Origin: Synechococcus sp. RS9916
GTDB lineage: Bacteria > Cyanobacteriota > Cyanobacteriia > PCC-6307 > Cyanobiaceae
Assembly: GCF_000153825.1 (NCBI RefSeq)
Contig: NZ_DS022299.1
Span: 1,762,869 to 1,826,868, forward strand
Length of the DNA: 64,000 nt
Direction: 5' to 3'
The notes beneath the pieces were generated by a model. That model ran no database searches and was not told the DNA's origin. It was given only the letters and a program-made list of their open reading frames with translations. Position 1 is the first letter of the stretch, and each line of letters begins with the position of its first letter. A program made the translations under genes and the position numbers. This document shows, in pieces, positions 9,389 through 25,129 of the stretch.

Positions 9389-10135
9389 ATGCTGTCCATG
9401 CCCGCTCGTCAGCCGCTCATGGCCGTTGGAACCACAGCGGCACTGCTGGGAGTCGGCCTCGGATTGGGGCCCATGCAGCCTGCCCAGGCCGGAGGCGTGT
9501 CCATCACCAGTTACGGCCATAGCGCTCTGCTGATCAAAGGGGGCGGGCAGTCCGTGCTGGTCAATCCCTTCAAGGCCGTGGGTTGCGCCAAGGGGCTGAC
9601 GGAACCCCGGGTGTCGGCCACGGTGATTTTGGCCAGCTCGGAATTGCTGGATGAAGGGGCACGCATCGCCAACGGCACCTTCCTTGTCAAACCTGGCTCC
9701 TATCGGGTTGGGGGGCTGAAATTGGAAGGCTTCGCCGCACCCCATGACCGCATCGGCGGCCGCCGTTATGGCCAGTCCACCCTGTGGCGCTGGCAGCAAG
9801 GGGGCCTGAGCTTTGCCCACCTCGGTGGCACGGCTGCTTCCCTCAGCGGAGAGGACAAGGTGCTGCTTGGACGGCCCGATGTGCTGATCATCGGTGTTGG
9901 TGGTGGTGGCAAGGTCTACGACGGCAACGAAGCCGCGGCCGTGATCAAAGCCCTGAACCCCCGCCGCGTGATCCCGGTGCAGTACGTCACGGGAGACGCA
10001 CCCGCGGGCTGTGACCAGACCGGGATCCAGCCGTTCCTTGATGCTCTCAGTGGCGTCACTGTGCAACGGGTGGGCAACACTCTCACCCTGCCCTCCAGCC
10101 TGGGGGACTCCACCGTGGTGGACGTGATGCGCTGA
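9389..10135 (+). CDS. Exported metallo-beta-lactamase-fold protein with degenerate metal motif
   Basis: The 248-residue protein has a signal peptide ending near AQA-GG (about residue 34). The segment ITSYGHSALLI, a Gly-rich LIIGVGGGG strand and RVIPVQYVT match the UlaG-like (Lactamase_B_3) fold. Where that family has the metal-binding HxHxDH after the beta-hairpin, this protein reads VILASSELLDEG, so the ligands are missing. It may be a non-catalytic or altered relative; function unknown. A second ATG at 9398 is an alternative start. Confidence 0.75.
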   Translation: MLSMPARQPLMAVGTTAALLGVGLGLGPMQPAQAGGVSITSYGHSALLIKGGGQSVLVNPFKAVGCAKGLTEPRVSATVILASSELLDEGARIANGTFLVKPGSYRVGGLKLEGFAAPHDRIGGRRYGQSTLWRWQQGGLSFAHLGGTAASLSGEDKVLLGRPDVLIIGVGGGGKVYDGNEAAAVIKALNPRRVIPVQYVTGDAPAGCDQTGIQPFLDALSGVTVQRVGNTLTLPSSLGDSTVVDVMR

Positions 10136-10149
10136 GCGCAGGCCGGGGA

Positions 10150-11166
10150 TCAGACCGCCATCAAACCCAGGCGTTGGAGTTCACCCTCCAGATCAGCGCG
10201 GGTGTAGCCGGCGATCAGCGCCAACAGCAGCAGGACACGGGCCTTCTGAGGGCTGAGAGTACCCGCCGGCAACAGCCCTAAACGGGCATGGTCGGCGCAG
10301 CGATGCACCGGCCCGGAACCACAGCGATTGGCGCGGAGCATCAATGGCAAAGGGCCATTCCACTGGTCGATGGCGGTGCGTTCCACCGCCGACAGCTGGC
10401 CTGCACCGGTGCCGGTGAAGACCAATCCCTGCACACCGGCCTGGAGCAGCGCAGGGATCAGCGCCGCTGGAGGCTCCACGCAGCCATGCAGGATCGCCAC
10501 CTGGGGCCACATTGATGAGAGCGGGAGGGCAGCGAAGGGCACCATCGGCGCCCCTGCCGCAGCCGGCCAGTGCACGCCGGCATCATCCACCCACCCCAAC
10601 GGGCCCGCCCCAGTGCTGCGGAAGGCGCCCACCCCCTGGGTGGCGACCTTGGTCACGGCACGGGCCCCATGGATCTCGCCATCGAGTACCGCAAGCACGC
10701 CGCGCCCGCGTGCTTGCGGATCGATCGCCACCTCAACCGCCTGGTAGAGGTTCAACGGCCCATCGGCGCTGAGGGCGGTGGCCGGTCGCATCGCCCCCAC
10801 CAGCACCACCGGCCTGGGGTCATCGATCAAGAGCTGAAGCAACCAGGCGGTTTCCTCCAGGGTGTTGGTGCCATGGGTAATCACCACCCCGGCGAGGTCA
10901 GGTTGCGTCTGAAACGCCTCACGAATCCGTGCCACCAACAGGCGCCAATGGGCGAACTGCAGGTCGGCACTATCGACGCTGGCGATGGCCTCCACCCGGA
11001 TCGTCGCCAGCTGCTGCAATTCGGGCACCGCCGCCAACAGGGCATCACCGCTGAGGGCGCCAGCGGCATAGGTATTGACCTGGGTGCTGGTCGCCCCGGA
11101 GCCGGCAATCGTGCCTCCCGTGCTGAGCAACAGCAGCGCAGGCCGCTGCACCGCAGGCTCCCCCAT
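10150..11166 (-). CDS. L-asparaginase-family amidohydrolase
   Basis: The 338-residue protein carries the asparaginase motifs STGGTIAG (Thr16/Thr19), VVITHGTNTLEET (98-106), VGAMRPATALSADGPLNLY and ARAVTK. Family members hydrolyse asparagine or glutamine. The Thr and Lys of the catalytic set are present, but the usual aspartate of HGTDT is Asn here, which may alter activity. There is no obvious signal peptide. The ATG at 11166 overlaps the upstream stop by one base, making this the last gene of the signalling operon. The open frame upstream of 11166 belongs to the cyclase-kinase gene. Confidence 0.88.
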   Translation of the reverse strand: MGEPAVQRPALLLLSTGGTIAGSGATSTQVNTYAAGALSGDALLAAVPELQQLATIRVEAIASVDSADLQFAHWRLLVARIREAFQTQPDLAGVVITHGTNTLEETAWLLQLLIDDPRPVVLVGAMRPATALSADGPLNLYQAVEVAIDPQARGRGVLAVLDGEIHGARAVTKVATQGVGAFRSTGAGPLGWVDDAGVHWPAAAGAPMVPFAALPLSSMWPQVAILHGCVEPPAALIPALLQAGVQGLVFTGTGAGQLSAVERTAIDQWNGPLPLMLRANRCGSGPVHRCADHARLGLLPAGTLSPQKARVLLLLALIAGYTRADLEGELQRLGLMAV

Positions 11167-13427
11167 CAGCGGAGGCCGAAGCGGCGGCCCAAGGTGTCGA
11201 GCACAGCTGCATCCACGCCATAGCCCCGCAACGCCTCGATCACCGCCCGGGGCTTCTCCGCAGGCGGGCACTGGTCCAGCTGATCGAGCACGGTGAGGCC
11301 AATCGGGCCGATCAGTTCGGTGAGTTGGTCGCGCAGCTGAGCCTCATCGAGCACATCAACAGCAGCCTCAGCCACTGGGGATGGAGCGGGTGTAGACGAC
11401 GACGGGATGGGGGACGAAGGCTGAACCGCAGCCTCTGGGGCCTCTGGATCAGGGGGCTCCATCGACGACTCCGCAGCCATCGACGTTGCTGCAGCCGTGA
11501 GCAAATCTTCAATCACAGCATCGGGCACCGAAGCGTTTTGCAACTGGATTCGGAAGCGCGCAGGGTCATGGGGCAGCAATGCCGCCAACTCGGCGGTCCA
11601 AATGAAATCAGCGATCGGACCGATGCGATCCCGCAACAGGGCCAACAAAACCGGGTTCCAATCGCCAGCCCCGGAAGCAGGTGCCGATCCGGATGGTTCC
11701 GGGGTCGCAGGATCGACCACTGCCTGGGGCTCAGATGGGGCAGGCGCCACTGGCTCCGGCGTCGGCACTTCCGCCTTGCGGCAAGCCTCGTCGACGTCAG
11801 CGACCGCCAAGCCAGCTGCCACCAGCCGATCCCGCAGGGGCCCGAGCTGTTGAGGGTCGATGGTGGAGGGAACGGATTCCAGCAACAGCTCCACCATCGG
11901 GCCATAAATCACCACCAGATGGTCGTGGAGGCCGGCTTTACGCACCGCCGGTCGGGACAGATCCACCGCTGGGGAAGGAGCAGAGGCACCCGTCGTGGCG
12001 CTGACTGCACTGGTCCGTCCAGCGCTGGCAGGAGCTGCGCTGGCACTGACTGGATTGGAATTCTCTGGAGTGGTGCTGCCTGGCGCAGACACCGGCACCT
12101 GCACCGGCTGGTCCAGCAGCTGCAGAGCATCGGAGGCCTGCTTCAAACGTCGGGCCGGCTGATCTTCCAACAGGGGCGCCAGCCAGCGCTGCACCTCCGG
12201 GTCAAGGGCGTCCAGAGTCCAACAGGCCAGGGTCTCGTCATAGAGCTGGGAAGGCTCACCACCGGTGTAAAGCAACAACGCCGTCACACCGAGGGCGTAG
12301 AGATCGGCCGCTGGTGTGATCCGTCCAAAACGGGCCCGCTCCGGGGCCGTGAAATAGGGCCTCCCCCGCTCCGACAGGCTGGGCTCGCGAGCCTCGGATG
12401 GCTCATGGGTGGTTTCCGTGCGGGCGCGCAACAGGGAGAAGTCGACCAGGAACGGAGCAGCGTTGCTGTCGGGAAGGATCAGGTTGGCGGGATGAATATC
12501 GCCATGCACCAGACCAGCGGCATGCACTTCCTCCAGCACCTGCAACACCTGACGGAGCAAAGCGGCAAGCCGCTGTTTGCGCCGCAACAGATCGAGAGAA
12601 CCCTGCAGGGATGGACCTGCGATGTACTCCTGGATAAAGCAGAACATCCCCCCCTGGGCATAGGCATCCAGCACCCGGGGAATGCGGGGATGGCGCAGCC
12701 GATCGAGGCAAGCGGCCTCCACCCGTAAGGCCTCCTCCAGAGCGGGATCTGCAGGAATCAGCTTGAGAACCGCCTGACGGTCGCGCTGGCGCTCCTGCAA
12801 CAGGAGGGTGTTGCGCTCCACGGAACGACTCAGGGGCCGCACCACGGAATACGGGGTGTCCTGCAGCAGGGCATCCACATTCATGCCGTCATCAACGGGG
12901 GCCCGCCCGAAGCGCAGTAGTTCCTCAGGGCCGAGGCAATAGAGCTCCATTCGCTCCGGCAGACCCTTCAACTCCACATCCCCCATGCTGCGTGCGATCT
13001 GGCGAAACCTGGGATCAATCAATTCATAGGTCGAACGCGTAAAGGCCACGCCGTTCGCCGGACTCACGGTCTGCAACCGAGAGGCGAGATGCACCCCCTG
13101 GCCAATGATGTCGTCGCCGTCGGCATAGATCTCGCCGGTGTGCAGCCCAAAGCGGTGCGCCAATGATTGACGCCCGCGGGCACTCAGGGCCTGCACCGCT
13201 GTCTGAATGAACTGCAGTGCTTGCGTCGGCCCATCGAACGTGACCAGCAGACCATCGCCAAGGGATTTCACCAACAGCCCCCCATGGCTTTGCACCGCAT
13301 CACGAATCAGGGAAAGGTCCTCCTTGATCCGCTGGATAGCAATCAATTCATCAGCAAAGATCTTGAGCGACGAATCGACCACATCACTGAAGACGATGGC
13401 GCGCAGCTGGCGGGCCTGTTCCGGCAT
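11166..13427 (-). CDS. Class III nucleotide cyclase-protein kinase fusion with triplicated C-terminal module
   Basis: The 753-residue protein has three parts. Residues 8-165 are a class III cyclase domain: metal Asp15 (FSDVVDSS) and Asp58 (KSLGDGL), with Lys54 and Asp106 suggesting ATP as substrate; the usual VN-x3-R transition-state Asn is His113, with Arg117 kept. Residues about 193-440 are a Ser/Thr-kinase-like domain: Lys222, catalytic loop HGDIHPANL (Asp310, Asn315), DFS in place of DFG at 329-331, APE at 361-363. A Pro/Ala/Ser linker follows, then three related helical modules at about 498-555, 590-648 and 695-753, each with a Y/IGPx core. It is coupled by one-base overlaps to the genes on both sides. 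It is presumably a cytosolic signal transducer; ligand and targets are unknown. Confidence 0.88.
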   Translation of the reverse strand: MPEQARQLRAIVFSDVVDSSLKIFADELIAIQRIKEDLSLIRDAVQSHGGLLVKSLGDGLLVTFDGPTQALQFIQTAVQALSARGRQSLAHRFGLHTGEIYADGDDIIGQGVHLASRLQTVSPANGVAFTRSTYELIDPRFRQIARSMGDVELKGLPERMELYCLGPEELLRFGRAPVDDGMNVDALLQDTPYSVVRPLSRSVERNTLLLQERQRDRQAVLKLIPADPALEEALRVEAACLDRLRHPRIPRVLDAYAQGGMFCFIQEYIAGPSLQGSLDLLRRKQRLAALLRQVLQVLEEVHAAGLVHGDIHPANLILPDSNAAPFLVDFSLLRARTETTHEPSEAREPSLSERGRPYFTAPERARFGRITPAADLYALGVTALLLYTGGEPSQLYDETLACWTLDALDPEVQRWLAPLLEDQPARRLKQASDALQLLDQPVQVPVSAPGSTTPENSNPVSASAAPASAGRTSAVSATTGASAPSPAVDLSRPAVRKAGLHDHLVVIYGPMVELLLESVPSTIDPQQLGPLRDRLVAAGLAVADVDEACRKAEVPTPEPVAPAPSEPQAVVDPATPEPSGSAPASGAGDWNPVLLALLRDRIGPIADFIWTAELAALLPHDPARFRIQLQNASVPDAVIEDLLTAAATSMAAESSMEPPDPEAPEAAVQPSSPIPSSSTPAPSPVAEAAVDVLDEAQLRDQLTELIGPIGLTVLDQLDQCPPAEKPRAVIEALRGYGVDAAVLDTLGRRFGLR

Positions 13428-14338
13428 CAGCGGCTCTCCTCCTTGGCAGGCGAGGCAACTTTTTTCGCCCCATACACCGTGTAAGGAGCTCCGGCCCGCG
13501 GCAGAGACCACCCTTCAACGGCCGCCACGATCCCCCGCAACTCCTTGAGGGAGTAGGGCTCAGGGATCACGCCGCTGGCATAGCCCAGAGACGGGGGCAG
13601 CTGGGAGACGTTCTGATCCAGTTGACTCAAGAAGGGTTGGTGATCCGACTGCAACAGCGGCTGGCTGAGGGCCAGGGCACCCAGAGGAATCAAGTGGGAA
13701 TCCTCATAGAGCATCCGCAAACCGGGGCTGCCATGGGGAAGCGCCCCATCCCAAGCGATCACATCCACACGACCGTCGTTGAGCATCTCGCGCAGATCGG
13801 CGTAGCTCAGGGCGTACTGCACTTCAGAGAAGCGCAGGCCATGGAGATTGAAGAGGGGTAAGTAAAAGCCCGTGAGGGAGCCTCGCGGCAGCAACCCCAA
13901 CCGTTTGCCGCGCAGGTCGGCCCTGGTGCGAAGGCCACTGGCTTCACGCACCAACAATTGCGACTTGGAATTGCTGCGCCGCCCCAACTGACGCACCAGC
14001 CCATAGCCACCCCCCTGCTCGAGGGCATAGGCCGTCAATCCCGGTGGCAGAAAGGCCAGATCCCAGTCACCCGTGCTCAGCCGGCGCCGCGCCTGCTCCG
14101 GACTGGCCACTGGCTCCAGCTGCACCTCACAGCGACTGGCCACGGTCAACAACTCCTTGAGCCGAAACTGGTCGCTGTCAGGCAAAACCGCTGCACCACC
14201 CTGCGTGCGACCTTCCAGGGCCCCCACCAGACCAACACGCAAGCGATTGCCCGGCCCGCATAAAGCGACGGAAGGAGACTGCGGTCCACCACAAGCGGCG
14301 GTGAACAACAAAGCCAGCAGCGGCAGCCAGCGCTTCAT
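13427..14338 (-). CDS. PhnD-like periplasmic substrate-binding lipoprotein
   Basis: This is a lipoprotein with lipobox FTAAC (Cys16) and a fold matching the phosphate/phosphite/phosphonate-binding PhnD family: LRVGLVGALEG, then the CEVQLEPVASPEQARRRL helix, DLAFLPPGLTAYAL, RGKRLGLLPRGSLTG and a C-terminal closing helix. No permease or ATPase gene is adjacent. It sits between a membrane HAMP sensor and a cyclase-kinase, with one-base overlaps on both sides, so a ligand-sensing role is more likely than transport. ATG 14338 is preferred to the TTG at 14341. The ligand is unknown. Confidence 0.87.
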   Translation of the reverse strand: MKRWLPLLALLFTAACGGPQSPSVALCGPGNRLRVGLVGALEGRTQGGAAVLPDSDQFRLKELLTVASRCEVQLEPVASPEQARRRLSTGDWDLAFLPPGLTAYALEQGGGYGLVRQLGRRSNSKSQLLVREASGLRTRADLRGKRLGLLPRGSLTGFYLPLFNLHGLRFSEVQYALSYADLREMLNDGRVDVIAWDGALPHGSPGLRMLYEDSHLIPLGALALSQPLLQSDHQPFLSQLDQNVSQLPPSLGYASGVIPEPYSLKELRGIVAAVEGWSLPRAGAPYTVYGAKKVASPAKEESR

Positions 14339-15276
14339 CAACCCTGGCCTTTGCGGTCCTTGAGCATCTGCATGGAAATCGCCAGGCTCTGCTTCATGCG
14401 CTCGAAACTACGGGCCAACAACCCGATTTCATCGCGACGCTCCCGTTCCTCGAAGTTGACGGTGGCGGGAGTGACGCTGGCTTCCTCGGCCTTGCGGCTG
14501 ATCTCGCGCATCGGGCGCAGGATCAACTGACTGAGCACCACGTTGGTGATCACACCCACCACAGCGAACGCCAGCACCATCAACAGCGCGGTCGCAATCA
14601 AGGAGCGATCTTTGGCCGCAAACACCGCCTTCTGGGGGACGGTGACGATCTGGGTGCCGACGATCTCATTCAGCTTCCAACCGAAGCCACTGCTATCGCC
14701 GTAAGCCAGCAGCTGACTTGCGGGTGCCCGATCCGGGGTGGAATGGCAAACCAGGCAACTCTCCTTGCTGACCTTGATCGGCTGGGCAACGAAGTGAACT
14801 GTGCCCAGAGGCGTGTTCTTGCTACCGGACTGACGCTTCAGCGACGGATCGCGACGGAAATTCTCGATGATGCCGGTTTCAAACGAATCGGCCTTGTCTC
14901 TCAGATTGGTGGGGTTGAGGGCCGCTTCGCGATAGGAGTATTCGCGGTAATCGGGATTGTCTTTGAGATAGCCCGCAACGGTCTGGGCGGAATAACTGGG
15001 CACCGCTTCCGGACGGAACAACCCCACTCCCTGATTCAGCGGGGCAACGATCGGATTCACCTTCTTGCTGGTGTAGGCGCGAACCGACAACATCGCGTCC
15101 ATAAAGAACGCCGCTCGCTGATCAATGAGCTCCCGAGCCTGCCAGCCAAACAGCAGATTCAGCAGCAGCACCGCCACAAGAATCGACAGCGTGAGAATCG
15201 CTGTAAGCGTGATAGCGAGCTGCTGACGCAAGGGACGCTGGCCCGGCTCCGGGAACAACCGCTTGATCGGTGACAT
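14338..15276 (-). CDS. Membrane sensor with CxxCH-containing Tll0287/DUF3365-like domain and HAMP
   Basis: The protein is about 312 residues. TM1 is at about 20-42, followed by a periplasmic DUF3365/Tll0287-like domain with a single c-type heme motif CLVCH at 174-178, TM2 at about 225-252, and a HAMP region (LRPMREISRK to DEIGLLARSFERM) at the end. There is no kinase, cyclase or methyl-accepting domain, so signalling must pass to a partner. It is the first gene of the operon with the PhnD-like lipoprotein and cyclase-kinase, whose genes follow with one-base overlaps. Redox, gas or heme-state sensing is an inference from the motif. Confidence 0.87.
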   Translation of the reverse strand: MSPIKRLFPEPGQRPLRQQLAITLTAILTLSILVAVLLLNLLFGWQARELIDQRAAFFMDAMLSVRAYTSKKVNPIVAPLNQGVGLFRPEAVPSYSAQTVAGYLKDNPDYREYSYREAALNPTNLRDKADSFETGIIENFRRDPSLKRQSGSKNTPLGTVHFVAQPIKVSKESCLVCHSTPDRAPASQLLAYGDSSGFGWKLNEIVGTQIVTVPQKAVFAAKDRSLIATALLMVLAFAVVGVITNVVLSQLILRPMREISRKAEEASVTPATVNFEERERRDEIGLLARSFERMKQSLAISMQMLKDRKGQG

Positions 15277-15332
15277 CAACGCAACCGGGAGCTCTTATCC
15301 ACAAACTAGTGGGCAAGTTGGATTTTCACCGC

Positions 15333-16481
15333 TCAAGAGGGCACAGAATCAATCTGCTGATAGGTCTGCCAAAAGCGCTGCATCTGCTCCGTGGTGCCGA
15401 GGCTGACCCGCAAGGCACCGTCGATCTGCGGCTTGCCAGCCATCGAACGCACAAGGATCCCTGCAGCACGCAGCTCGGCGTCCACACACGCCACACCGCG
15501 ACGGGGCCAGAGCAAGAGGTAGTTGCCGCCATCGACGTGGAAACGCACACCAGAGCGCGTCAACTCCGACACGATCCAGTTACGCGCACGCAACACCTCG
15601 GCAACGTAGGCGTCTGTGTAGGCCTGGTCCGCCAGGGCCGCAAAGGCCGCGGTGACCGCCAAGCTGTTGACGTCATAAGGGCCCGTCACCCGGCTGACGC
15701 GATCCACCACCTCGGCATGGCCGATGGCAAAACCAATGCGCAGCCCCGCCAGTCCTGCCGTCTTCGCGAGAGACCGCAGCACCAACACATTCGGCATTGC
15801 TGCGAAGTCGACACAAGGAAGCACGCTGTCTCCCGTAAACGCCTCATAGAGCTCATCCACCACCACCAAGGTGTCGGGAGCTCCTGCCGCCAGCTCCAGC
15901 ACCCGGTCCGGCGCCAGACGCGTGCCGGTGGGGTTATTGGGATTGCAGAGCATCAGCACCCGAGGGCGCCGTGCCAGGGCCTCTTGGATCGCCGCGAACG
16001 GGAAGACGTAACCCGGCATCTCATGGGGCACGGCGTCGATCACCATGCCCTGCATCCCTGCGCAAGGGGCGTAATAGCCAAAGGTGGGACTGGTGGTGAG
16101 CAGGGTGTCGCCGGCACCGCCATAGGCCTGCAGCACCGCGTGAATGGCCCCATCCACGCCGTTAAAAATGCCCACATTGGCGGCGCCAAGCCCCGTCGCC
16201 AGGCCCATCGGCGCCGCGGCCAGATTGGCCACCACCGCCTCGCGCAGGCCGTCGTATTCGGGATACACCGCCAGCTGATCGGCTGGAATCGACCGCAACG
16301 CCTCCACCACCTTCGGGCTGGGACCGACCGTGTTCTCGTTGAAATCGAGGCGCAATAGGCCCCGCCTCCCCTCCAGAGGAGCGCTGTAGGCCTTCAGACG
16401 CTCCACATCGGCGCGGGCTGGCGGAACGCCGGATGAGGGCGCTGCACTGAACGCGGTCGCAGCAGGGTCAGTCATCGCCAT
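15333..16481 (-). CDS. hisC: Histidinol-phosphate aminotransferase-family enzyme
   Basis: This is a fold-type I PLP enzyme of about 382 residues. It contains RLDFNENTVGPSP, YPEYDGLREAV, the CNPNNPTGT motif, VVVDELYEAF and the PLP lysine Lys240 in RSLAKTAGLAGLRIG. HisC converts imidazole-acetol phosphate to histidinol phosphate; paralogs act on other amino acids, and no other his gene is nearby, so specificity is not proven. The ATGs at 16481 and 16475 are both plausible; the upstream frame to 16547 is Pro/Arg-rich and probably not coding. Confidence 0.85.
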   Translation of the reverse strand: MAMTDPAATAFSAAPSSGVPPARADVERLKAYSAPLEGRRGLLRLDFNENTVGPSPKVVEALRSIPADQLAVYPEYDGLREAVVANLAAAPMGLATGLGAANVGIFNGVDGAIHAVLQAYGGAGDTLLTTSPTFGYYAPCAGMQGMVIDAVPHEMPGYVFPFAAIQEALARRPRVLMLCNPNNPTGTRLAPDRVLELAAGAPDTLVVVDELYEAFTGDSVLPCVDFAAMPNVLVLRSLAKTAGLAGLRIGFAIGHAEVVDRVSRVTGPYDVNSLAVTAAFAALADQAYTDAYVAEVLRARNWIVSELTRSGVRFHVDGGNYLLLWPRRGVACVDAELRAAGILVRSMAGKPQIDGALRVSLGTTEQMQRFWQTYQQIDSVPS

Positions 16482-16729
16482 CGGCTTGGGATCGCATCTC
16501 CAGGGGGCGGGCACGGGGGCGGGCATCAACCCGTTCGGCCTCAGCAAGGCTGGTGCCGATGCACGTCATCCCCAGCTTGCCGTGCGCAGAGAGCCATCAG
16601 GGCAAAGCCCTGATCAGCCACCGCATCGATCCAGAGCACAAGGACATCCAAGTCTGGTGATCGCTCCACTCCACGTCAGCACCAGAAGCGTGCCGAGAAT
16701 GGGTGCACGACCGCGCCGAGCCCCTAGCC
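16482..16729. other. Divergent hisC-selO intergenic region with a perfect hairpin
   Basis: About 248 bases without a convincing gene. It must hold the promoters for the two divergent genes. A perfect 8-bp inverted repeat ATCAGGGC-AAA-GCCCTGAT lies at 16596-16614. It has no T-tract on either strand, so it is not a standard terminator. No tRNA-like structure was seen. Confidence 0.5.
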
Positions 16730-20391: not shown

Positions 20392-21081
20392 TCACCCCTC
20401 CATCCGCAAGGCAAACACCACTCCGCGCACCGTCTGAATCACCCTCTGGGAGCCCGTGGCCTCCAGCTTCTTGCGCAGATAGCGCACATACACATCGACA
20501 ACGTTCTCGTCTCCGAAATAGTCGTCACCCCAGACGTGCTGAATCAACTGAGCCCGAGACAGCGCCTGACGGGGATGACGCATGAAGCACTCCAGCAGGT
20601 CAAACTCCCGCACCGTGAGCACCAGCGGGGTCCCGTTGATGGCGCAGGTGCGTTCGGCGCCATTCAGCACCAAATCCCCCACCTGCAGCACATCGGAACT
20701 GAATCCCTGCGAACGGCGCAGCAGCGCTTTGGCACGCGCCAGCACCTCACGCACGTTGAACGGCTTGGCAATGAAATCGTCGGCTCCGGCCTCCAGCGCG
20801 GCGACGCGATCATCCATTTCATCCCGGGCCGTGATCATGATCACCGGCAAAAACACCCCGGTGTCGCGAAGGCGGCGGCAGATGTCCAAGCCGGTCATCC
20901 CAGGCATGTTCCAGTCGAGCAGCGCCAGATCCGGGGGGGTGTCACGCACGGTCTTCATCGCCGTGACGCCATCCGATGCCGTCAGCACTGTGAAGCCCTC
21001 GGCCTCAAGCTCCATCTCCAGGAGCATCACGATGTTGGCCTCATCATCGGCCAACAGCACCGTGGGAGTGGAACCGGCCAT
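20392..21081 (-). CDS. OmpR/PhoB-type response regulator
   Basis: The 229-residue protein has a receiver domain (LLADDEANI, phospho-Asp in LLDWNMPGMTG near residue 57, Lys in AKPFNVREV) followed by a winged-helix DNA-binding domain (TVREFDLLECFMRHP, DYFGDENVVDVYVRYLRKKL). No kinase gene is adjacent, so it is an orphan locally; the HisKA kinase at 25114-26571 is the nearest candidate partner by position only. ATG 21081 is chosen over the TTG at 21087. It is not similar enough from memory to name. Confidence 0.92.
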   Translation of the reverse strand: MAGSTPTVLLADDEANIVMLLEMELEAEGFTVLTASDGVTAMKTVRDTPPDLALLDWNMPGMTGLDICRRLRDTGVFLPVIMITARDEMDDRVAALEAGADDFIAKPFNVREVLARAKALLRRSQGFSSDVLQVGDLVLNGAERTCAINGTPLVLTVREFDLLECFMRHPRQALSRAQLIQHVWGDDYFGDENVVDVYVRYLRKKLEATGSQRVIQTVRGVVFALRMEG

Positions 21082-21143
21082 TACCAAGAGAAGTCTGAAA
21101 AAACGCTAGTGGCAACGTCCGATCGCCACAACTGATTCGACCA

Positions 21144-22091: not shown

Positions 22092-23483
22092 TCACTTGCC
22101 AATGCAGAAACGGGAGAAGATCCGATCCAGCACCGATTCGGTGAGTTCTTCCCCGGTGATCTCCCCCAGGCTCTGAATCGCTTGACGCAGATCAATCGTC
22201 CAGAAATCCCAGGGGAGCCCCTGCGCCGCCACCTCTTCACTGCGCTGAAGAGCCGCCGCTGCCGCCGCCGCCAGATCCACCTGGCGCTGATTGAGGGCAA
22301 GCAGCAAGGGCTGCTCACTCAAGGCACCGCAACGGCGCAACATCGCCTGCACCAACTCGGCTTCACCATCTCCCGTCTGGGCACTGAGCTGCACATCCAC
22401 CGCCAGCGGCCGGCCTTCAGCCTGCACCGGAGCAGCCAGATCAGCTTTGTTGCCCACCAGCAGATGCTCGACCCCCTCAGGGATCCGAGCCAACAACGCT
22501 TGATCCTCAGCGGTCCACCCCTCGCTGAGGTCAAACAACAACAACACCAGATCAGCACTGGCGAGAGCATCGTGACTGCGGGCGATCCCAAGTTGCTCAA
22601 CGGCATCGGTGGTGACCCGGATCCCGGCCGTATCGAGCAGGGTGATCGGCACACCCTCCAGCACGATCTCACTCTCGAGCAAATCCCGCGTTGTGCCCGG
22701 CAGATCGGTGACGATCGCGCGCTCACGGCGGCTGAGGCGATTGAGCAACGAGCTCTTGCCCACGTTGGGGCGCCCCACCAGGGCCACCCGCAGACCGGTG
22801 CGTAAGGCATCCCCACGTTCCCCATCCGCCACCAGTTCAAGAAGTGCGTCCCGCACCGCCAACAGCTCCCGCAGCAGAGCCGGGCCATCCAATGGAGGCA
22901 GATCCTCTTCAAAATCCACCCGCGCCTCCAGCTCGCTCAACTGGTCGAGCAGCCGCTCCCGCAAGGCGCCAATACGCCGCTGAATCCCGCCATCCAGGCC
23001 GGCCATGGCCAACTGCGCTGCCCGCTGACTGCGAGCCGCCACCAGATCTGTGATGGCTTCGGCTCGGGTGAGATCCAAACGCCCGTTAAGCACCGCCCGT
23101 TGGCTGAACTCACCGGGGAGGGCGCGACGCACTCCAGGCTGCTCCAGAACACGGGCCAGCACCCGTTGCACGGCAATCACCCCGCCGTGACAGTGGATCT
23201 CCACGACGTCTTCAGCGGTGAAGCTGCGCGGTGCCTGCATCACCAGCACCAACACTTCATCCAACCGCTCCACCCCATCGGCCGCCAGCACATGGCCGTA
23301 GAGCACCCGATGGCTGGCCCACTCCTGCTGGCCAGGGAAATGGGCAATGGTTTGCACCACCTGCTGGGCCTGGGGGCCCGACAGGCGAATCACAGCAATG
23401 CCGCCCTGCCCCGGTGCCACCGCCGTCGCAACGGCAACGATCGTGTCAAGCGGGAGGGAATGACCGGTCTCTGGCGTGGACAT
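22092..23483 (-). CDS. mnmE: tRNA uridine-5-carboxymethylaminomethyl modification GTPase
   Basis: This three-domain GTPase of about 463 residues works with MnmG on wobble uridine of tRNA. The N-terminal formyl-THF-binding domain begins DTIVAVATAVAPGQGGIAV. The G domain has G1 GRPNVGKSSLLN, G3 DTAGI and G4 NKAD. The protein ends FCIGK, containing the conserved C-terminal cysteine. The ATG at 23483 gives the standard N-terminus; the longer open frame to 23555 overlaps the divergent promoter region. Confidence 0.97.
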   Translation of the reverse strand: MSTPETGHSLPLDTIVAVATAVAPGQGGIAVIRLSGPQAQQVVQTIAHFPGQQEWASHRVLYGHVLAADGVERLDEVLVLVMQAPRSFTAEDVVEIHCHGGVIAVQRVLARVLEQPGVRRALPGEFSQRAVLNGRLDLTRAEAITDLVAARSQRAAQLAMAGLDGGIQRRIGALRERLLDQLSELEARVDFEEDLPPLDGPALLRELLAVRDALLELVADGERGDALRTGLRVALVGRPNVGKSSLLNRLSRRERAIVTDLPGTTRDLLESEIVLEGVPITLLDTAGIRVTTDAVEQLGIARSHDALASADLVLLLFDLSEGWTAEDQALLARIPEGVEHLLVGNKADLAAPVQAEGRPLAVDVQLSAQTGDGEAELVQAMLRRCGALSEQPLLLALNQRQVDLAAAAAAALQRSEEVAAQGLPWDFWTIDLRQAIQSLGEITGEELTESVLDRIFSRFCIGK

Positions 23484-23588
23484 CACGATCTCAGGAGCAT
23501 CGAGGAACACACCACAGCGCCCCCATCCAGACCTCCCTTCTACGATCCCCGGCAACCTTCACCCGCCACTGGCGGCAGCGCTGCTCCC

Positions 23589-24068
23589 ATGACCCGGTGG
23601 TTGCGACGACTCTGGCGCCGCGGCAGACAAGCCCTCCAATGGGTGTGGCAGCAGGAGGGCAGCCCAGGACAACGGGCACGGGGCTTAGCGGCAGGCATCT
23701 TCTGCGGCTGCTTCCCCTTCTTTGGCCTTCAGACCCTGCTAGGCATTGCCCTGGCCAGCATGGTGCGCGGCAATCATCTGCTTGCAGCCGCCGGAACCTG
23801 GATCAGCAATCCCTTCACCTACGTGCCTCTCTACTGGTTCAACTATCACGTGGGCGATGTGCTGCTGCGGGGGGGAGCGGAGCCAACCGCACGCACCATC
23901 AACCAAGCCTCGATCTGGGACCAGGGGTGGACTTTCACCAGCCGCCTCCTCCTGGGCTCGAGCCTTGTGGGGCTGGTGCTGTCGCTCAGCCTTGGCCTGC
24001 TGGCCTGGAGGCTGTTCCGCTGGCAGTCCAGACACCAACATCGCGTGCCAACGGAACGGCACCTCTAG
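23589..24068 (+). CDS. DUF2062 membrane protein
   Basis: The 159-residue protein has a basic N-terminus and about three hydrophobic segments. The conserved DUF2062 block is visible: SPGQRARGLAAGIFCGCFPFFGLQTLL followed by NHLLAAAGTWISNPFT and a C-terminal transmembrane helix. The function of the family is unknown. The gene is divergent from mnmE. The same frame is open upstream into mnmE, but the ATG at 23589 is the sensible start. Confidence 0.85.
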   Translation: MTRWLRRLWRRGRQALQWVWQQEGSPGQRARGLAAGIFCGCFPFFGLQTLLGIALASMVRGNHLLAAAGTWISNPFTYVPLYWFNYHVGDVLLRGGAEPTARTINQASIWDQGWTFTSRLLLGSSLVGLVLSLSLGLLAWRLFRWQSRHQHRVPTERHL

Positions 24069-24190
24069 AGGCAGATCCAGGCACCGTTCCTAGGGTGAAG
24101 CCCATGGGAAGCCCAGCCCCCTTGCCAATCACGACGTCACCGTTGGCGGTCACACCAAAGGATGTGAAGCCGAGGCAGCGGCCATGGAGG

Positions 24191-25129
24191 ATGACCAGGG
24201 TTGCTGCCAGCTGGGTACTTGGCGCCAGCCTGAGTGCCTGCAGTGCACCCTCGCCCTCACTGACACCTCCAGTCGCCCCAAAAGACGCAGATTTAAGGCT
24301 CACGGAAGAGCCGTACCAAAGCCAGGAAGCCATCAATCAACGGATGGCGATCGTGATCCCCTACCTGGAACGCGTCACTGGCCTTCGCATCGCCTACGTG
24401 CCGGCCATTAATTACGCCCATAGCCATCAGATGCTCCGGGATGGCGAGGTGGATGTGATCAATATCGGCGTGATGGGTGGCTATCGATTGCTGCACAACA
24501 ACCCTGGCGTGCAACCACTCGCGGTTCAAAAGCCATCCTTCCGGAGTGTGCTGATTGCCAATCAAGCAGCTCTCAAGCACAAGGCTCTGTCGCCCCCCGA
24601 TGCATCCCCTCTTGCCATCCTTCGCGATCAACGCGTGGCGTTTGGCAGCCGCTCATCCGGGTCGACCTTTATGCAACCACTACTGCATCTGCGTGATCAG
24701 CAGATCGAACTCTCAGCCTTGAACGGCTGCGTGCATGAGCCCAACACCAACCACTTGTCGCAGCTCGTGGCCGAAGGCGGGATGGTGGATTTTGCCTTCA
24801 TCCCCAGCTTCAGCGGCGACCCCCTGCATGCCGTGCCCGAACACCTGCATGAGGCGGTCACGGTGGTGTGGGCCAGTGATCACTCCCGCAACGACTTCAT
24901 GGCAGCGGCTGTTCACCCACCCACATCAACGAAATATCGCCATCTGCAGCAACTCAAGATGGCGTTCCTCAAACTCAACCTCAACGATCCTGCCCAGAAG
25001 CGCGTGCTCGACACCTGGGGCTATCACGGCTTTGAACAACCCACCGCCGACTTTCCTGGCGCCATGATTAACAAAGTGGCCGATGCTCATGCCAGTGCTG
25101 GAGGTGTGTCTCAATGCCAACAGCTGTAA
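24191..25129 (+). CDS. PhnD-like substrate-binding lipoprotein linked to a histidine kinase
   Basis: The protein is about 312 residues with lipobox SLSAC (Cys17 from the ATG at 24191). A PhnD-like binding fold follows: RLTEEPYQSQEAINQRM, YLERVTGLRIAYVPAINYAH, GEVDVINIGVMGGYRLL, RDQRVAFGSRSSGSTFM, ending in DTWGYHGF. The start is uncertain: ATG 24104 with a weak SD would add 29 residues including a basic stretch. It overlaps the next gene, a histidine kinase, by 16 bases and has no transporter genes, so it probably supplies ligand recognition to the kinase. The ligand is unknown, possibly phosphate or phosphonate-like. Confidence 0.85.
   Translation: MTRVAASWVLGASLSACSAPSPSLTPPVAPKDADLRLTEEPYQSQEAINQRMAIVIPYLERVTGLRIAYVPAINYAHSHQMLRDGEVDVINIGVMGGYRLLHNNPGVQPLAVQKPSFRSVLIANQAALKHKALSPPDASPLAILRDQRVAFGSRSSGSTFMQPLLHLRDQQIELSALNGCVHEPNTNHLSQLVAEGGMVDFAFIPSFSGDPLHAVPEHLHEAVTVVWASDHSRNDFMAAAVHPPTSTKYRHLQQLKMAFLKLNLNDPAQKRVLDTWGYHGFEQPTADFPGAMINKVADAHASAGGVSQCQQL

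Follow-up and report, generated by a model that had tools for sequence, protein, structure and literature searches.

Four adjoining genes on the minus strand of Synechococcus sp. RS9916 raise the question of whether a membrane sensor with a heme c motif, a PhnD-like binding lipoprotein, a soluble cyclase-kinase and an asparaginase-like enzyme constitute one signalling system, and which of them belong to its conserved part. The genes lie in a stretch of 64,000 nucleotides, here called the window; their description in the initial annotation as a coupled set with three one-base TGATG junctions was borne out by the sequence and the open reading frames (ORFs), the overlap being present at 3/3 junctions (Table 1). 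Such overlaps alone prove little, since a 1- or 4-base overlap was possible in 6 of the 29 codirectional neighbour pairs of the window, three of the six belonging to this locus (frames chosen by a simple longest-first rule). A scan of positions 9900-16700 for sigma-70-like promoters gave none, a result that says little because 0.8 would be expected in shuffled sequences.

Table 1. Positions of the genes, domains and motifs of the window locus and of fusion frames in other genomes (TM, transmembrane helix)
Feature	Position	Strand	Basis and remarks
Sensor gene	14338..15276	-	ATG 15276, TGA 14338; TM1, periplasmic Tll0287/DUF3365 (c-heme Cache), TM2, HAMP, ~14 residues
CxxCH heme-c motif (C174-H178)	14743..14757	-	sequence
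HAMP domain (residues 248-298)	14383..14535	-	Pfam; directly before protein end
PhnD-like substrate-binding lipoprotein gene	13427..14338	-	ATG 14338, TGA 13427
Lipobox cysteine C16	14291..14293	-	sequence; lipobox read by eye
Gene of soluble cyclase-kinase with three C-terminal GPxA domains	11166..13427	-	ATG 13427, TGA 11166
Class III nucleotidyl cyclase domain (residues 10-165)	12933..13400	-	Pfam; D15, K54, D58, D106, R117 kept
Ser/Thr kinase domain (Pfam stretch 212-397)	12237..12794	-	K222, E237, D310, N315 kept
GPxA bead 1 (residues 497-551)	11775..11939	-	model and profile; weakest, 29% probability
GPxA bead 2 (residues 591-654)	11466..11657	-	model and profile; 87% probability
GPxA bead 3 (residues 695-749)	11181..11345	-	model and profile; 86% probability
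Type II-like asparaginase gene	10150..11166	-	ATG 11166; Pfam/NCBIfam; coupled here, outside conserved module
Kinase-TM-PhnD fusion frame	L106:3794-5998		Pfam and hydropathy
Kinase-TM-PhnD fusion frame	L107:3546-5870		Pfam and hydropathy
Kinase-TM-PhnD fusion frame	L108:3535-5970		Pfam and hydropathy
Kinase-TM-PhnD fusion frame	L109:3214-6060		Pfam and hydropathy

Three conserved genes and a local neighbour

The genes of the sensor, the PhnD-like protein and the cyclase-kinase were found side by side, always with this arrangement, in 7 of the 151 genomes of the window's family (G000, G064, G134, G124, G035, G084 and G051). The order is thus not restricted to this strain; such a restriction is what the initial annotation, in proposing a survey of co-occurrence and order across cyanobacterial genomes, had named as refuting its reading. 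Weaker sensor matches were present in nine further family genomes, six of them near the threshold, and the three best (G045, G075, G101) had no adjoining PhnD-like or cyclase-kinase gene; weak PhnD matches in the family were limited to one in G082 and a second one in G134. Among eleven named contigs, five of which are taken to belong to genomes that also bear a handle here (G035, G124, G051, G437, G477), the sensor gene was followed by the PhnD-like gene in 11/11 and then by the cyclase-kinase gene in 9/11, the remaining two contigs ending within 1.9 kb. They include Synechococcus sp. UW140, UW105, WH 5701 and 1G10, Vulcanococcus sp. Clear-D1 and several Cyanobium. The PhnD-like and cyclase-kinase genes overlapped by 4 bases at six of six loci (L018-L023), and the sensor and PhnD-like genes by 1 or 4 bases at the five of these that had a sensor under the ORF rule; in UW105 and CZS25K, 5 bases separate the latter two genes. 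The sensor of Vulcanococcus sp. Clear-D1 (L042:8946-9974) aligned over only 238 residues and ended 185 bases before the PhnD-like gene, beside intact-looking PhnD-like and cyclase-kinase genes, reflecting either a real break or an assembly error. The conserved unit, termed here the cassette, consists of these three genes.

The fourth gene, recognised by the Pfam models Asparaginase N and C, had been proposed as a further operon member. In a four-gene pathway it would be the effector or supply the sensed amino acid. Its coupling to the cyclase-kinase gene in the window recurs as a one-base overlap in UW140 (L038/L110) and UW105 (L039/L111), but these two (G437 and G477) and the window genome were the only ones in which the cassette was followed by the asparaginase. 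The enzyme occurred in 12/151 family genomes, all of genera g1 and g5; the cassette was absent from 10/10 other asparaginase loci fetched (11 others found), and eight of those ten had a hisC-like gene directly beside the asparaginase (ORF rule). Conversely, no asparaginase match was found in the cassette genomes of genera g10, g35 and g51, in which argS came next after the cassette in 5/6 cases, the sixth (L020) having another gene and then the contig end. The cassette therefore sits between hisC and the asparaginase in this small group, having either moved there or been inserted anew. On this distribution and genomic context the four-gene unit was rejected, and a functional role of the asparaginase in the pathway has, in our judgement, only a very slim chance of being real. 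Near the place that the cassette occupies in the other genera, between nadC and argS, the window contains a gene for an OmpR-type response regulator (20392-21087, minus strand).

Domain make-up of the three proteins

The sensor matched the Tll0287-like model (PF11845) with 125.5 bits against a cut-off of 24.1, together with HAMP and no further domain, and hydropathy indicated two TM helices. As it stops about 14 residues past HAMP, it has no output domain, in agreement with the initial annotation. Among 23 aligned close relatives, 22 likewise stop 10-30 residues past HAMP and one (L024) before it; HAMP and a conserved end are kept in 22/23, the conserved tail reading RMKxSL; C174, C177 and H178 of the heme motif are invariant in all 23. 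A search for a histidine kinase partner or output of the sensor gave in Pfam the same two domains alone, and in NCBIfam histidine-kinase matches that covered the TM-HAMP part and remained far below the cut-off. Proteins with the same domain and the same CxxCH motif (sCache_heme/DUF3365) are treated in a preprint, the accessible part of which reports NO binding in vitro by a TM-HAMP member and redox behaviour of a stand-alone protein, and assigns redox roles to stand-alone domains (PMC12889525). Those proteins, however, were stand-alone or fused to an output, and a separate Ser/Thr kinase or PhnD partner was not found in that part of the text (PMC12889525).

The second protein matched the Pfam model Phosphonate-bd (PF12974) with 45.3 bits (cut-off 27). 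Its residues C16, S154 and G157 are invariant in 30/30 aligned relatives, while residue 156 varies. The structure model (pLDDT 87) gave XAC2383 and ArrX as best folds, both at Z 21.4, with PtxB, HtxB, AioX and PhnD just behind (rows within 1 Z were counted as tied); XAC2383, with an rmsd of 2.8 over 239 aligned residues, was also the best PDB profile match (E 2.3e-9). As modelled, the protein thus resembles the signalling binding proteins XAC2383, ArrX and AioX as much as the transporter proteins PhnD and PtxB. In the alignment with the XAC2383 chain, the S154-G157 loop coincides with SSTSG; the corresponding loop of AioX and PhnD holds the oxyanion, according to the part of the source available (PMC5908839), and its transfer to S154-G157 is an alignment by eye. 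That the lipoprotein has no transporter, as had been claimed, held for the locus, where the scanned neighbours in the window were not ATPase or permease parts of a Phn/Ptx ABC importer. For the genome as a whole it needs qualifying: a strong PhnD (218 bits) lies near a PhnE-like frame (C1:789371, below the PhnE cut-off) about 990 kb from the cassette. Elsewhere, the PhnD gene of L089 has, at a distance of 508 bases, a gene for an ABC protein of exporter type (ABC_membrane plus ATPase). The window also encodes, outside the cassette, a second PhnD-type protein (23231-25129, plus strand; PhnD domain at about 24311-25048; 107.5 bits), the true start of which is probably internal, giving by eye a lipoprotein of about 310 residues.

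The third protein, earlier described as a cytosolic cyclase-kinase, proved to be one by its Pfam matches (Guanylate_cyc, 34.7 bits; Pkinase, 70.1 bits) and by hydropathy, which gave no TM helix. Its structure model (mean pLDDT 77, pTM 0.42) comprised a cyclase, a kinase, three confident small helical beads and disordered linkers. Judged by alignment, five of the six cyclase residues that we take to be catalytic (presumably two metal-binding Asp, the substrate Lys and Asp, and the transition-state Asn and Arg) appear to be kept, with H113 replacing the usual Asn as in the aligned PDB chain 1ybt, and all six positions (D15, K54, D58, D106, R117, H113) are invariant in 7/7 aligned cyclase-kinases. 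The kinase domain has the full Hanks-type set, K222, E237, D310 and N315 being present in 20/20 aligned proteins and D329 in at least 90%, and we assume the usual catalytic roles for this Lys, Glu, Asp, Asn and Asp; the window protein has HGD instead of HRD.

The beads connect this protein with kinases linked to such sensors elsewhere. The 24 linked-kinase frames read have in common, at the C-terminus, a stretch of roughly 60 residues that has IGPxA at its core and is designated GPxA; these kinases have about 380-470 residues and are longer when a cyclase is present, and in one frame of 877 residues (L097) the kinase match was weak. The GPxA profile (A7) gave no match to the repeats of the window's own family (none in G000 at E 1e-5), for which reason a profile-profile comparison and a separate family profile (A8) were used. 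At sequence level the window beads resemble other GPxA segments weakly, and the link rests on the profile-profile comparison, in which four control segments stayed below 1.3% probability (values for the beads in Table 1); by this measure the window cyclase-kinase belongs to the GPxA kinase set. A bead-2 profile made from the cassette proteins found, within the family, the seven cassette genomes, a decayed cyclase-kinase in G148 and a marginal frame in G024 (E 0.007). The G148 remnant (L036, G148:C29:1-6000) stands in a genome with no sensor or PhnD-like match.

Pfam gave no match up to E 10 for the GPxA region of the window part and of one filamentous relative, and in L089 the region had a weak match to PXA (21 bits, under the cut-off of 27). 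DUF8082, a possible Pfam domain with an IGPIA motif, was considered for GPxA, but no search supported this. When GPxA is called undescribed here, this refers to comparison of sequences and profiles and implies no claim of a new fold. In the fetched loci, GPxA was present in 36 of 63 kinase-like frames, which are not all different genes as the loci overlap; the 27 without it include five diverged family entries and three G148 fragments. It was also found apart from a kinase, adjoining the sensor as a frame of 161 residues with neither a kinase nor any other Pfam match (G290) and as a frame of 97 residues (G273).

Distribution, linkage and fusions across the cyanobacteria

Profile searches covered 386 genomes of one phylum, the Cyanobacteria, with 5 to 16 candidates scored per genome, so that misses are possible and a single absence is no proof; the thresholds were set at score gaps after viewing the lists. 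Sensor matches at E 1e-40 were present in 45/386 genomes, 36 of them at E 5.5e-78 or better with the next genome at 5.7e-68, and 29 of these 36 were outside the window's family. The GPxA profile at E 1e-5 found 29/386 genomes, which were exactly those 29. Strong PhnD relatives (E up to 1.4e-25) occurred in 31/386 genomes, 27 of them outside the family, and at E 0.001 in 72/386, the weaker matches of which may be ordinary binding proteins; the sensor/GPxA genomes had a strong relative in 27/29 cases, G290 and G350 being without a separate one. Fisher values over the 386 genomes (7e-41 for PhnD, 2e-37 for GPxA) are descriptive only and overstated because the genomes are related by ancestry. An attempt to retrieve the linked kinases by kinase-domain similarity failed, other kinases scoring best in most genomes with the full profile; a cyclase-kinase with GPxA was clearly first, among the matches listed for the kinase profile, only in G350, G311 and G161.

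The genes were also close neighbours. A GPxA match lay within 5 kb of 25/37 sensors, compared with about 0.09 expected at random placement, and 25 of the 41 GPxA matches lay within 5 kb of a sensor (45 rows minus four second matches in one frame or neighbouring place); the PhnD gene was within 5 kb of the sensor in 26/27 cases and of GPxA in 18/27, with nine lacking the latter proximity. In the fetched loci the PhnD-like and sensor genes were mostly divergent neighbours, with the linked kinase beyond the sensor or between both. As a control, lower-scoring sensor paralogues (L128-L136) had an A3-type kinase nearby in 0/9 loci. High-scoring sensors without a PhnD gene were adjoined by a GPxA kinase in seven loci (L117-L121, L123, L125) and by a short GPxA frame in L124; L122 had only a kinase without GPxA, and L126 and L127 had neither. 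Seven neighbours of the module that were scanned by Pfam showed no common theme (MltA, DUF5895, M48, GTPase, Na/Ca exchanger, ABC exporter, and one without a match).

From the gene linkage, the co-occurrence, the domain make-up, the conservation of catalytic and heme residues and the PhnD-kinase fusions found elsewhere, it seems fairly probable that the products of the first three genes are parts of a single divided receptor, in which the lipoprotein and the heme sensor would control a GPxA kinase, here combined with a cyclase. The divided receptor suggested in the initial annotation is thereby retained for three genes, on their order, co-occurrence and fusions, and abandoned for the asparaginase as a fourth part; interaction of the proteins, the ligand, the direction of control and enzymatic activity are all inferred. 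Separate functions co-kept by shared regulation, for example under one stress, would require no complex and could explain why 12/37 sensors have no GPxA match nearby, overlapping stop and start codons being common in the window in any case; this seems distinctly improbable in view of genome sets that are identical even when the genes are unlinked, of the fusions, and of G148, where the parts are jointly missing or decayed.

The kinase and the PhnD-like domain were found joined in single proteins, with a TM helix between them, in G418, G271, G260 and G290 (frames in Table 1), the G418 fusion having a second, marginal hydrophobic stretch inside the kinase domain. Action of the PhnD-like domain on the kinase would predict such fusions. 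They had no sensor domain in Pfam, and sensor matches at or below E 1e-40 were absent from G260 and G271, so that the fused form can do without the sensor. It could accordingly be argued that the lipoprotein and the kinase are the signalling pair and that the Tll0287-HAMP protein, with a heme that reacts to redox or NO, serves chiefly as a modulator, of the pair or of the membrane, rather than as a transmitter, which would agree with the redox roles given to stand-alone domains in the accessible part of PMC12889525. However, 11/12 linked kinases tested in split systems had no TM helix by hydropathy (the exception being L083) and hence need a transmitter; GPxA tracked the sensor (29/29 genomes) more closely than PhnD (27/29), and the sensors retain HAMP and its conserved end, as described above. 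We regard this pairwise scheme as rather unlikely. Several kinases near sensors were of other types, without GPxA, as were the fusions: in L083 a kinase with a TM helix and a PsbP-like C-terminal domain (L083:5306-6709) stands in place of the GPxA kinase; L083 and L085 both have kinases without GPxA beside sensor-PhnD pairs; and kinases of about 600 residues (kinase plus WD40 in the two scanned) occupy the far side of the sensors at L093:3013-4797, L096:2981-4783, L099:2822-4615, L117-L121 and L123.

A proposed divided receptor kinase and its parallels

In the divided receptor, the PhnD-like lipoprotein, positioned at the membrane's outer face, would bind a small ligand, probably an oxyanion, and the sensor's c-heme Cache domain might read nitric oxide or the redox state. 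Both would act on the TM helices and HAMP of the sensor, the short cytoplasmic end of which, HAMP plus the RMKxSL tail, may recruit or switch the soluble Ser/Thr kinase through its C-terminal GPxA domains. With the class III cyclase fused to the kinase in this lineage, the receptor is predicted to drive both the phosphorylation of proteins and the synthesis of a cyclic nucleotide. Two inputs to the receptor are plausible. A wider proposal, that the cyanobacteria have an ancient group of divided receptor kinases, in which a c-heme Cache-HAMP transmitter and a PhnD-fold lipoprotein pass two inputs (NO/redox and an oxyanion) to kinases via the undescribed GPxA docking domain, with the cyclase either fused or separate, is in our opinion evenly balanced between right and wrong.

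The layout has a precedent in the actinobacterial GlnH-GlnX-PknG system, whose operon combines a binding lipoprotein with a transmitter in the membrane and a soluble Ser/Thr kinase, and where, in the parts of the sources available, the C-terminal helical domain of PknG is proposed to dock to GlnX, itself without a known enzymatic output (PMC9769921, PMC8546545). This precedent shows that such a trio can work. The two systems are alike in the three-part layout, but, as far as those parts of the sources go, their components are unrelated: GlnX has four TM segments and helical-bundle domains, compared with two TM helices (hydropathy), a c-heme Cache and HAMP in the cassette sensor; GlnH binds Asp/Glu, whereas the cassette lipoprotein has the PhnD fold; and PknG carries TPR repeats, in contrast to the GPxA beads and the cyclase. 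Pfam at E 0.1 gave no TPR or rubredoxin model in the cyclase-kinase.

Closer to the lipoprotein are the AioX/ArxX/ArrX three-component systems, in which a PhnD-fold binding protein signals together with a membrane sensor as proposed for the cassette; the partners described in the accessible part of that source are a sensor histidine kinase and a response regulator, neither of which is present in the cassette (PMC5908839). The receptor-diguanylate cyclase pair XAC2383-XAC2382 likewise combines a PhnD-type periplasmic protein with a membrane signalling enzyme. Its output is reportedly a GGDEF enzyme within the membrane protein itself, with no heme sensor and no Ser/Thr kinase. A literature search by title and start of abstract, in which subscription journals are little covered, gave no paper describing the three-gene set, its spread or GPxA; the domain families themselves are known.

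To our knowledge, the activators of bacterial Ser/Thr kinases are largely unknown, and up to 35 Ser/Thr kinase matches at E 1e-20 were counted in one of the 29 genomes (among the matches listed). For one set of these kinases, recognisable by the C-terminal GPxA mark, the module points to a probable transmitter as well as a probable extracellular binding protein, and it offers a partner to the DUF3365-HAMP proteins without output, which otherwise look like orphan sensors.

The cyclase recurs in two arrangements. Cyclase-kinases with GPxA were found outside the window's family in G311 and G350 (family f23; Pfam) and in G161 (f5; profile). In G164 the cyclase, combined with FHA and GAF domains, has a gene of its own about 43 bases upstream of the linked kinase, and G302 has a homologue at the corresponding position; kinase and cyclase have thus been joined in more than one way. 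These separate genes, L080:10942-12609 (Pfam) and its homologue L086:11149-12771, both directly upstream of a sensor-linked kinase, could mean that the cyclase is controlled by phosphorylation.
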